A stretch of DNA of 35,522 nucleotides from Bryobacterales bacterium (GTDB lineage Bacteria > Acidobacteriota > Terriglobia > Bryobacterales > Bryobacteraceae): contig JADLDI010000028.1 of NCBI GenBank assembly GCA_020846745.1, forward strand, positions 1 to 35,522. The letters are read 5' to 3'. The notes beneath the pieces are model-generated. The model was not told the origin of the DNA and searched no databases. It saw nothing but the letters and a program-made list of their open reading frames with translations. This document shows, piece by piece, positions 23,158 to 26,046 of the stretch (the stretch's first letter is position 1; the number at the start of each line of letters is the position of its first letter). The translations under genes and the position numbers were made by a program.

Positions 23158-24690
23158 ATGCTGTTGCACGAGGTGGTGGAGACATCGGAGCGGCTGGCGG
23201 GAACCTCCAAACGATTGGCGAAGATCGATTTGGTGGCGGACCTGATTCGGCGGGCGAAGGGCGAAGAGATCGAGATCGCGGTCGCCTATCTGTCGGGCGA
23301 GATACGGCAGGGTCGCATCGGTATCGGCTGGTCGATGCTCCAGGTGGGGCGTAGTGCGCCTCCGGCGAGTTCACCGAAGCTGTGGCTGCCCGATGTGGAC
23401 GACGATTTTCAGCGGCTTGGCTCGGTGAAGGGCAAAGGGGGTGACGAGCAACGCCGCGCGATGCTGTACAAGCTGTTCTCGAGCGCTACGAAGGCGGAAC
23501 AGGACTTCCTCTCGCGATTGATTATGGGCGAATTGCGGCAGGGGGCACTGGAGGCAATTGTCCTCGAGGGTGTCGCCAAGGCCGCGGTGGTGGAACCTGG
23601 GAAACTGCGGCGTGCCGCGATGCTGGCGGGCGAGTTGCCGAAGGTCGCGCGCAAGGCGATGGAGGAAGGCGATGCCGGGTTGGGCGGGTACAGTATTGAG
23701 CTGTTCCGTCCGGTGCAGCCGATGTTGGCGCAACCGGCCGAGGATATCGGCTACGCGCTCCAGCAATTAGGTTCCGCCGCATTGGAGTATAAGTTCGATG
23801 GGGCGCGGATCCAGGTGCACAAGTCGGGTGACAATGTAATTGCTTATTCGCGAAGTCTGAAGGACGTGACGGCGGCGATTCCGGAGGTGGTGGAAGCGGT
23901 CCGCTTAATGCCTGCACGAGACCTGATTCTCGATGGCGAAGTGTTAAGTTTTGACGAAGACGGCCGGCCGCAGCCGTTTCAAGTGACGATGCGGCGGTTT
24001 GGGCGGAAGCTGGATGTAGACCGGATGCGTTCGGAACTTCCGGTGAAGCCTGTCTGGTTCGATCTGCTGTATTCGGGCGGCTCGATGCTCGATGAATCGC
24101 AGGCGCGCCGGTTCGCGGAACTGAGGCGGGTATCGGCCGCCGATCAACTGGTGCCACATATGGTGACCGGCGACGTGGAACAGGCGGCCGCCTTTGTCGA
24201 ACAGGCGCTGCGACAGGGGCACGAAGGCGTGATGGCGAAGTCGCTTGAGGCCGGGTATGCGGCGGGGTCGCGCGGGGCAAGCTGGTTAAAGGTGAAGAAG
24301 GCGCGCACGCTCGACTTGGTGATTCTCGCCGCCGAGTGGGGCAACGGGCGGCGCCGCGGACTACTGAGTAACCTGCATTTGGGCGCCCGCGACACGGTGA
24401 ACGGCGATTTTGCGATGCTGGGCAAGACCTTTAAAGGACTTACCGATGAAATGCTGGCCTGGCAAACCGAACAACTGCTGAAGTTGGAAATCGCTCGCGA
24501 TGGGTATGTGGTGTATGTGAAGCCGGAGCTTGTGGTTGAGATCGCGTTTAACGAGATACAGCTAAGTTCCAGATATGAGAGCGGCCTGGCCCTACGCTTC
24601 GCGCGGGTAAAGCGTTACCGGACAGACAAGACGGCCGAACAGGCAGATACGTTCGAGACTGTGCAAAGAATGGCCAACCCACTTACATGA
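23158..24690 (+). CDS. ATP-dependent DNA ligase
   Basis: This enzyme seals nicks in DNA using ATP. The 510-residue product resembles the archaeal/LigB-type architecture. Residues 1-175 form the helical DNA-binding domain. The nucleotidyltransferase domain then has the AMP-accepting Lys212 in EYKFDGARIQVH, LILDGEVLSF (motif III region), EGVMAKS (motif IV) and SWLKVKKARTLDLVI (motif V). An OB-fold domain ends near VEIAFNEIQLSSRY. AGGAG lies 4 nt before ATG 23158. Bacteria normally use the NAD-dependent LigA for replication, so this is an accessory repair-type enzyme. Its TGA overlaps the ATG of the next gene by 4 nt, which indicates coupled translation with the Cas6-like protein. Confidence 0.95.
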   Translation: MLLHEVVETSERLAGTSKRLAKIDLVADLIRRAKGEEIEIAVAYLSGEIRQGRIGIGWSMLQVGRSAPPASSPKLWLPDVDDDFQRLGSVKGKGGDEQRRAMLYKLFSSATKAEQDFLSRLIMGELRQGALEAIVLEGVAKAAVVEPGKLRRAAMLAGELPKVARKAMEEGDAGLGGYSIELFRPVQPMLAQPAEDIGYALQQLGSAALEYKFDGARIQVHKSGDNVIAYSRSLKDVTAAIPEVVEAVRLMPARDLILDGEVLSFDEDGRPQPFQVTMRRFGRKLDVDRMRSELPVKPVWFDLLYSGGSMLDESQARRFAELRRVSAADQLVPHMVTGDVEQAAAFVEQALRQGHEGVMAKSLEAGYAAGSRGASWLKVKKARTLDLVILAAEWGNGRRRGLLSNLHLGARDTVNGDFAMLGKTFKGLTDEMLAWQTEQLLKLEIARDGYVVYVKPELVVEIAFNEIQLSSRYESGLALRFARVKRYRTDKTAEQADTFETVQRMANPLT

Positions 24691-25517
24691 CATTCGCGGT
24701 CGAAGTGTGCACGCTGCGGTTTCAGGCGATCGATACAATCTACTTCCCCGCCCCAAGCGCCGGCAATGTGCTGCGCGGAGCGCTGGGCGACTGGCTGCGG
24801 CACGCGCCGAACCTGGAGCCTTACCGGTACTGGTTCGCGCCGCAAGCGAATTCCGGTCCCAGCGGGTTTGCCGACAGCGCGCGGCCGTTTGTGCTGCGGG
24901 CGCAATCGCTGGATTACCGGCGAGTCCAGCCGGCCGAGGAGTTCTGCTTCGATGTGCATATCTTCCCGGCGGGCGATGAAGGACCCGATATGTTCGCCCG
25001 TATGTTCAAGTTTGCGGAGGTACACGGATTGGGCGCCGGGCGGGGCCGGGCGAAGTTCGTTGAGCTAGGCCGCCGGACGGAACGCGTTGAGCTATTGCAA
25101 CCGGTGGCGGCTCGCGAAGCGTCCATCGAGTTCCTGACACCGACCGAACTGAAGCACCAGGGCGCGATCGTGTCAACACCGGAGTTCGGCGTCCTGTTCG
25201 GGCGCATTCGCGACCGGGTAGCGCGGCTGTTGCAGCTGTATGGAGCGGGGACGCCGCCTGATTTCGACTTTAGAGCGATGGGCGAACGCGCGGCGAGAAT
25301 CCGAATGACACGCTGCGATGTCGCCTGGCAGGACGCGGAGCGCCGCAGCAGCCGCACCGCTCAGGTGCATCCGCTGGACGGGTTTTGCGGCAGCGCACAG
25401 TATTCAGGCGCATTGTCTGAATTCATACCGTGGCTGTACGCTGCGCAGTTGTGTGGCGTGGGCCGGCAGACGGTTTGGGGAAAAGGCGCGATACGAGCGG
25501 CCATTCTGATCCGATAG
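24687..25517 (+). CDS. Cas6-family RAMP endoribonuclease, no CRISPR array in view
   Basis: Cas6 proteins cut precursor CRISPR RNA within the repeat hairpin. The 276-residue product shows the RAMP-type Cas6 layout. LRGALGDWLR at residues 29-38 is typical of the N-terminal ferredoxin-like fold; GLGAGRGRAKF (114-124) is the first glycine-rich turn; TPTELKHQG (151-159) and PEFGVLFGRI open the C-terminal domain; WQDAERRSSR follows; and the glycine-rich loop GVGRQTVWGKG (257-267) closes it. His39 is a candidate catalytic residue. It starts at ATG 24687 within the ligase stop codon. No repeat-spacer array and no other cas gene lies in the window. It could process another host RNA, serve a distant array, or be a repurposed relic. 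Confidence 0.8.
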   Translation: MTFAVEVCTLRFQAIDTIYFPAPSAGNVLRGALGDWLRHAPNLEPYRYWFAPQANSGPSGFADSARPFVLRAQSLDYRRVQPAEEFCFDVHIFPAGDEGPDMFARMFKFAEVHGLGAGRGRAKFVELGRRTERVELLQPVAAREASIEFLTPTELKHQGAIVSTPEFGVLFGRIRDRVARLLQLYGAGTPPDFDFRAMGERAARIRMTRCDVAWQDAERRSSRTAQVHPLDGFCGSAQYSGALSEFIPWLYAAQLCGVGRQTVWGKGAIRAAILIR

Positions 25518-25656
25518 CATGTCTGGGAGGCATGCGCCCGAATCGCCGCAAACCAGATGGAGGGCCGGTGTATGGCTTCGATCGCGACAAACGGGCGGGC
25601 GATGTTTTTGCGCACCGATTCGCGCCTGTACCGCGTTGAAAAGGTATCTTCAAAGC

Positions 25657-26046
25657 ATGCTGATTGAATACGAAGCTGCGCCGGCGCGCGTGAAGGCAGT
25701 GTACGACGATATCCGCGCTACGCGGAAAACCGAGTACATCAATAACTTCTGGAAAGCCCTGGCGAGCGATCCCGCGACGCTCGAACGCACGTGGGAGAGC
25801 GTGAAGGCCGTGATGTCGCCGGGCGCGCTGGATCCGCTTACAAAAGAGCTAATCTACGTTGCTGTTTCCGCTACGAACGGCTGCGGCTATTGCATCGCGA
25901 GCCACACGGCGTCAGCGCGGGCCAAAGGCATGACGCCGGAGATGTTCGGTGAACTGATGGCCGTAACCTCACTGGCGAACGCGACGAACCGGCTGGCGAA
26001 CGGCTATCAGGTCGAAATAGACGCGATATTTCGCGAAGGAGCATAG
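25657..26046 (+). CDS. AhpD / carboxymuconolactone decarboxylase family protein
   Basis: The 129-residue protein belongs to the all-helical AhpD-like family, often peroxidase-associated thiol oxidoreductases. It has the active-site pattern Cys76-GY-Cys79 with His83 in NGCGYCIASHTA, the AhpD-type CxxC with a nearby histidine. Upstream, DPLTKELIYVAVSATN is the usual helix preceding the active site. ATG 25657 has an AAAAGG about 12 nt upstream. It follows the Cas6-like gene by 139 bp with no obvious function in between, and its stop directly abuts the stop of the convergent glycosyltransferase gene. A role in removing peroxides is likely but the partner is unknown. Confidence 0.85.
   Translation: MLIEYEAAPARVKAVYDDIRATRKTEYINNFWKALASDPATLERTWESVKAVMSPGALDPLTKELIYVAVSATNGCGYCIASHTASARAKGMTPEMFGELMAVTSLANATNRLANGYQVEIDAIFREGA

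Follow-up and report, generated by a model that had tools for sequence, protein, structure and literature searches.

Here we ask what a Cas6-family endoribonuclease gene does when it stands by itself. In the draft genome of a Bryobacterales bacterium (assembly GCA_020846745.1; 7.83 Mb in 157 contigs), such a gene overlaps the end of an ATP-dependent DNA ligase gene on contig JADLDI010000028.1, the entirety of which (35,522 nt, or 35.5 kb) is the window analysed here. The original prediction read the two genes as a possible nucleic-acid processing or repair module and offered, as its alternative, a Cas6 protein that serves a distant CRISPR array. From comparison with the rest of the genome and with 61 relatives, comprising 37 Bryobacteraceae genomes (36 genera) and 24 others, we propose that the window Cas6 likely cuts precursor CRISPR RNA (pre-crRNA) in trans for effector loci on other contigs. 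Below, G000 denotes the genome itself and other G numbers its relatives, C numbers denote contigs (the window is C28), and L numbers denote fetched loci.

A stand-alone member of the Cas6 family

The placement of the gene in the Cas6 family is borne out by profile searches: its product scores 61.1 bits against the general Cas6 profile PF10040, with a cut-off of 25, and 183.9 bits against the best of the PADLOC Cas6 models (PDLC01477). The motifs picked out in the original prediction, LRGALGDWLR, TPTELKHQG and GVGRQTVWGKG, are located at residues 29, 151 and 257, and a glycine-rich loop of the latter kind is typical of Cas6/RAMP proteins. The window was also said to hold no array and no other cas gene, which stands within the reach of the scans: a CRISPR array scan of the window came out empty, and ten of its proteins, a part of its genes, showed no cas domain in Pfam besides that of the Cas6 itself. 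An Rfam search of the window for arrays likewise found nothing, a null that tells little because true arrays, those of L035 and L036, escaped Rfam too.

Residue conservation extends across the family (Table 1). R30, G34, R173, R177, R219, S221, H228, G259, W264, G265 and G267 are invariant in all 38 family Cas6 proteins; H228 is invariant also in 74 aligned homologues (74 of the 120 listed), and its position holds no His in any of eight divergent Cas6 proteins from the same genomes. A zinc-finger-like Cx3Cx5Cx5C motif in the N-terminal half occurs in 18 of the 38 (L035:1819-2781 and 17 relatives), the copy on C13 among them, and is absent from the window protein. A tree of these 46 proteins (38 family, 8 divergent) leaves 20 of its 43 inner branches open; seven of the eight divergent sequences group together at 100/99, and the eighth is a long branch whose place is unsure.

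Table 1. Features of the window and the core csm operon of the same genome
Feature	Position	Strand	Basis
Stand-alone Cas6-family endoribonuclease gene, 276 aa	24687..25517	+	PF10040, PADLOC Cas6, homologues in 35/37 family genomes
PF10040 region, C-terminal half	25125..25493	+	Profile match
Codon of R30, LRGALG stretch	24774..24776	+	Invariant in 38/38 family proteins
Codon of H228, candidate active-site or RNA-binding residue	25368..25370	+	Invariant in 38/38 and 74/74
Glycine-rich loop GVGRQTVWGKG	25455..25487	+	Residues 257-267
ATP-dependent DNA ligase, LigB/PRK03180 type, 510 aa	23158..24690	+	NF002868, PF01068/PF04679/PF04675, K212; neighbour, outside the proposed mechanism
ATGA overlap, ligase stop / Cas6 start	24687..24690	+	Sequence
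Core csm1-csm5 operon, own genome	G000:C48, L204:1365-6775	-	All five subunits via Pfam or PADLOC

Arrays and Cas6-less effector loci on other contigs

If the window Cas6 has substrates, they should be sought outside the window. The whole-genome search proposed with the original prediction found arrays on C1 (10 and 6 repeats), C13 (31) and C25 (22), and cas loci on C1 and C13, the only contigs with Cas1. PF10040 recognises two genes in the whole genome, one in the window and one on C13. The C13 locus is of type I-A (cas3, cas8a, cas7, cas5a, cas1, cas4 and the array) and also encodes a Cas6, which belongs to the family of the window protein. The C1 locus is of type III-B, with Cmr1, Cas10, Cmr3 and Cas1 recognised alongside its two arrays; the profile search of the genome found no PF10040 gene in it.

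The repeats of C1 and C13 have in common the core GCCCCG-N5-AAGGGGATTGAAAC and an architecture that we call class (a), in which a hairpin is followed by a constant end (CCCC-N8-GGGG|ATTGAAAC). The pattern CCCC-N(5-10)-GGGGATTGARAC matches 8 of the 37 family genomes, and class (a) repeats are shown by G000, G001 (two repeats only), G002, G008, G021 and G029; single hairpin matches in G003 and G015, with no second copy in the DNA viewed, look like chance and were set aside. In four of the six class (a) genomes (G001, G008, G021 and G029) the Cas6 family supplies the only PF10040 gene.

G029 is the clearest case for a solo Cas6 serving Cas6-less effector loci. It carries a type I-A locus on C37 and, on C40, a III-B locus with homologues of the C1 Cmr1, Cas10, Cmr3 and Cas1 (38-55% identity), neither of which has a PF10040 gene; the sole PF10040 gene of the genome is a stand-alone Cas6 at 604 kb of C40, separated by 283 kb from the RAMP genes of the III-B locus. 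Together with the arrays on C1, C13 and C25 and the Cas6-less C1 locus, G029 lends support to the early idea of a Cas6 that serves a distant array.

In the mechanism that we propose, the arrays on C1 (and C13) would be transcribed, and their repeat hairpin, CCCC-N8-GGGG, would be bound by Cas6 and cleaved immediately on its 3' side. From the repeat architecture and from Cas6 action elsewhere, this cut is predicted to give every crRNA an 8-nt handle, ATTGAAAC. Such processing in trans is the best-supported mechanism; it would apply most directly to the Cas6-less III-B locus of C1 and may possibly extend to the core Csm complex described below. Cas6 sharing of this kind has parallels: most type III systems apparently use a Cas6 supplied in trans (PMC12669027), and a single Cas6 is common to the I-A and III-B systems of Sulfolobus islandicus (as cited in PMC12814883).

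Further arrays and loci were seen alongside these. The C25 array (C25:47602-49269; L271) is isolated, with 22 repeats of 36 nt, an 8-bp stem and a ATTGAAGC end; no cas gene was noticed in the 12-kb stretch around it, and arrays of the same architecture occur in G014:C91 and G009:C1. A 6.5-kb contig of G001 holds a two-repeat mini-array with the hairpin CCCC-N8-GGGG|ATTGAG (G001:C319, L187:1788-1897). Cas1 proteins 58-61% identical to that of C1 lie near class (a) arrays in G021:C38 (L190) and G002:C228 (L191), which suggests a recurring III-B-type locus. Arrays of other repeat classes lie near divergent Cas6 genes (G002 C130 and C13, G024 C558, G027 C3), and in G028, where the G027 repeat class is represented by two arrays, the only PF10040 gene is a stand-alone one.

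Distribution of the Cas6 family and of a core Csm operon

Is the solitary Cas6 an oddity of one genome? Homologues were found in 36 of the 61 relatives, namely in 35 of the 37 Bryobacteraceae genomes and in 1 of the 24 others, the two family genomes without one being G017 (62% complete) and G032. Of the G012 gene only the N-terminal part is seen, broken off where the contig stops; the listed Cas6 places contain no internal stops. A scan of named genomes for homologues of the window Cas6 confirmed none, and in the open-access literature we found no report of a solo Cas6 in Acidobacteria. Carriage on mobile elements was considered and rejected, as none of 50,697 phage records matched and only 7 of 72,556 plasmid records did, at 22-29% identity.

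The surroundings of these genes were compared in the window and 40 fetched loci (41 records), 39 of the 40 having a Cas6 homologue, with flanks that are uneven (some contigs are short, and the DNA available before Cas6 goes down to about 0.6 kb). When flanking open reading frames (ORFs) from the window and 39 loci were clustered, every neighbour cluster was confined to at most 6 of the 40 records, and the contexts are scrambled; the ORFs were picked by length, so that some are antisense because the DNA is GC-rich, and the Cas6 cluster itself captures only 31 of the 40 records. Arrays occur in three of the 41 records, one of which (L036) is without Cas6. Seven of the eight divergent Cas6 genes share their locus with an array, cas1 or RAMP genes (G034 C25 being outside the count). 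Members of the window's own family also occur in cas3-bearing loci (G000 C13, G031 C356 and G036 C608), and in G008 one adjoins two arrays and RAMP genes. Near these two arrays, on G008:C13 (L072, L239), an open frame of about 1247 aa contains several RAMP domains and may encode a type III effector of the fused-Cas7 kind.

Alongside Cas6, a complete type III effector operon recurs in the family. A RAMP search (PF03787) matched in 34 of the 37 family genomes, and csm1-csm2-csm3-csm4-csm5 is conserved in 33 of them, split over two contigs in G019 and G036. Identity to the Csm3 of our genome, with fragments counted, is 69-86% for core Csm3 and 45-50% for the further Csm3 copies that these genomes carry in divergent-Cas6 loci; among the 24 other relatives Csm3 was found in G057 only, at 37%. 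Identity within the operon is 52-90% for Csm2 and 34-76% for Csm1, Csm4 and Csm5. The own-genome Csm1 is short, with palm2 recognised by Pfam, domain B below its cut-off and no HD domain seen; the palm motif reads GGDD in 24 of 33 members, GEDD in our genome and GEDG in G001, which is of the same genus. An IcmF-like type VI secretion gene directly adjoins the operon in our genome (L204:6979-10716, minus strand).

We then have a broader sample of core-Csm loci, made up of the best 80 of 187 Csm3 relatives from a scan of named genomes plus 35 others, 115 in all, of which about 100 are distinct (15 of the named loci duplicate others) and many have less than 10 kb of flank. Neither tblastn for cas6 and cas1 nor the search for a CRISPR array near the effector genes found any in these loci; ten repeat-like stretches flagged near core Csm proved to be head-to-tail tandem or low-complexity repeats. 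In a search for a conserved leader or guide RNA, an alignment of 32 csm1 upstream stretches revealed no conserved block except the csm1 start. A search of the open-access literature found no report of an array-less core Csm operon.

Cas1 exceeds its cut-off in 19 of the 37 family genomes, and 16 of the 18 without it have Cas6. With G018 (Cas3 over cut-off and an array) and G014 (the isolated array on C91) left out, there are 14 genomes that have Cas6 but in which the searches revealed neither cas1, nor cas3 over cut-off, nor an array, the arrays being sought by two handle patterns that recognise only YTGARRC or ATTGAAA (G003, G004, G005, G006, G007, G010, G012, G015, G019, G022, G023, G025, G033 and G035). 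These are drafts, 80-99% complete, and draft genomes may miss arrays; Cas6 kinds invisible to PF10040 are also possible. Matches of one of these patterns in the 14 number 24, versus 30 in a reversed control, with the arrays of our own genome recovered, and 30 loci drawn from the matches of this pattern show repeats of at least three copies only in G000, G014 and G018. Cas6 is full length in 13 of the set and cut by the contig end in G012, and 12 of the 14 have the core Csm operon, the exceptions being G004 and G006.

Weighing the trans-acting reading against its rivals

Several observations weigh against a Cas6 that processes pre-crRNA in trans. The window protein scores 20.9 against the NCBIfam equivalog TIGR01877, below the cut-off of 58.65. 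Classical Cas6 has its catalytic His in the N-terminal domain, although some Cas6 proteins are without it; the family studied here has no conserved N-terminal His, and its invariant His, H228, lies in the C-terminal half. Within our genome, the same-family Cas6 of C13 could serve all of the arrays alone. That all six class (a) genomes have Cas6 is weak evidence because 35 of 37 family genomes have it; greater weight attaches to the four of the six that have no other PF10040 gene. The match between repeat class and Cas6 family is itself loose because the G028 arrays are without a Cas6 of their own. Finally, a pure crRNA-processing role leaves Cas6 in the 14 array-less genomes unexplained, as it does the retention of Cas6 together with Csm1-5 where no array was found.

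The likeliest of the alternatives, though one that we hold to be rather unlikely, is a domesticated role: Cas6 and the unlinked core Csm1-5 would form a conserved housekeeping or regulatory RNA-processing system that takes its guides or substrates from host RNAs and not from arrays. Indeed, Cas6 is found in 35 and core Csm3 in 33 of the 37 family genomes, with both in 32, versus 19 for cas1, and core Csm3 is far closer across genomes than are the copies in divergent-Cas6 loci. Furthermore, the Csm operon accompanies Cas6 in most of the array-less set, R30, H228, G259 and W264 are kept in all 13 full-length Cas6 proteins of that set, and the roughly 100 distinct core-Csm loci yielded no array, cas1 or cas6. 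The pairing is, however, imperfect, as G032 has core Csm without Cas6 and G004, G006 and G008 have Cas6 without core Csm3; co-occurrence is moreover confounded with descent, as the two genes track a single family. The csm1 upstream stretches yielded no host guide RNA and no conserved element, the array search was limited to its two handles, and same-family Cas6 genes lie within true CRISPR loci of G000, G008, G031 and G036. In a fuller version, in which we place slightly less trust, the Bryobacteraceae would have domesticated Csm1-5 and Cas6 as core genes that are not linked to each other and that work without arrays or spacer acquisition, and Csm would use guides made by Cas6 from host transcripts or passing arrays.

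Candidatus Solibacter usitatus Ellin6076, which we take to be a genome of the same group, bears on both this role and its opposite. In PMC3174227, three of its genes (Acid_0892, 0893 and 0895) are described as cas genes without a CRISPR and are read as remnants, and strain F-183 of the family is reported to be without CRISPRs (PMC8759368). A Csm1-like protein from a metagenome-assembled genome named Solibacter usitatus is among our Csm matches, the comparison covering this genome and not the Ellin6076 genes themselves; the latter probably represent the same core Csm operon. An array-less set of cas genes in this organism would suit a domesticated role, and the conservation of Csm3 and of the Cas6 residues throughout the family speaks against a reading as remnants alone, which leaves the domesticated role some probability.

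That the window Cas6 is instead vestigial, left from lost CRISPR loci and with no present function, seems to us improbable. It is the reading favoured for the Solibacter genes in PMC3174227, and it would fit the scrambled neighbourhoods and the scarcity of arrays near the gene (3 of 41 records). Yet the genes carry no internal stops, R30, H228 and the residues of the glycine-rich loop are invariant, and losses of a relic should be no rarer than those of cas1 (missing from 18 of the 37 genomes), whereas Cas6 is kept in 35 genomes of a set spanning 36 genera.

The adjoining ligase gene

The ligase itself is as described in the original prediction. The four-nucleotide ATGA overlap with Cas6 is present in the sequence, the nucleotidyl-Lys motif KxDG is intact, with K212 within KFDGAR, and the protein scores 689.8 bits against NF002868 (cut-off 641). 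It is thus a ligase of the PRK03180 type, known as LigB.

Its association with Cas6, in contrast, goes no further than the window. In a tblastn search of the window and the 40 fetched loci, the ligase matched in the window only. Five other family genomes have a full-length orthologue and two have fragments (58-66% identity); at the six of these seven loci that were examined, the gene downstream is different each time and never Cas6, a transporter-like gene recurs upstream at two of the six, and one neighbour has a domain in common with a window gene 4.8 kb away. Among the six genomes concerned, Cas6 lies elsewhere in five, with ligase and Cas6 on one contig but about 90 and 109 kb apart in G009 and G029; the search for Cas6 in the sixth genome, G032, gave none. 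In G001, whose Cas6 is sister to that of the window (support 100/98, bootstrap not settled), the gene sits between efflux-pump-like and aminotransferase-like genes, and the only ligase homologue, at 39% identity, is located elsewhere.

The survey of relatives thus shows a pair that is not conserved, the very outcome that the original prediction had named as speaking against it. A translationally coupled pair of RNA-cutting and nick-sealing enzymes for nucleic-acid processing or repair, to which the ATGA overlap would lend itself, is very improbable: synteny refutes it as a conserved module (ligase in 0 of 39 other Cas6 loci in the fetched DNA, Cas6 beside 0 of 6 other ligase loci, no ligase orthologue beside the G001 Cas6), and NF002868 is a model of DNA ligases, not RNA ligases. 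The ligase is apparently an unrelated neighbour, there by chance, and a 4-nt gene overlap alone is a poor ground for assuming shared function. On the other side of Cas6, an AhpD-like/carboxymuconolactone decarboxylase ORF occupies 25519-26046, starting 2 nt past the Cas6 stop; by eye, a start further downstream, near 25658, seems more plausible, in which case Cas6 would be followed by a gap.

Relation to known systems and implications

A Cas6 acting in trans, as we favour for the window protein, resembles the trans-acting Cas6 systems for type III and type I-A loci set out in PMC12814883 and PMC12669027, which likewise combine a Cas6-family protein with Cas6-less effector loci, arrays elsewhere in the genome and a hairpin repeat with an 8-nt ATTGAAAC end. 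It differs from them in that the window Cas6 stands apart from all cas genes found, and in that its relatives occur in nearly every genome of the family, even where no array was found. The C48 operon, for its part, matches a type III-A Csm effector operon in having all five subunits, Csm1 to Csm5, and in the GGDD palm of most family Csm1 proteins, from which the GEDD of our genome and the GEDG of G001 depart. Unlike type III-A Csm, the own core Csm1 is short, with no HD domain seen, and the core loci come without any cas6, cas1 or array found, in an operon conserved as a family core.

Cas6 supply in trans is thus known; what the present family adds is a Cas6 and a complete Csm operon as near-universal, unlinked genes, kept even in genomes that yielded no array. 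The Bryobacteraceae, with their Cas6 and Csm genes, offer a natural test of type III complexes without an array of their own.

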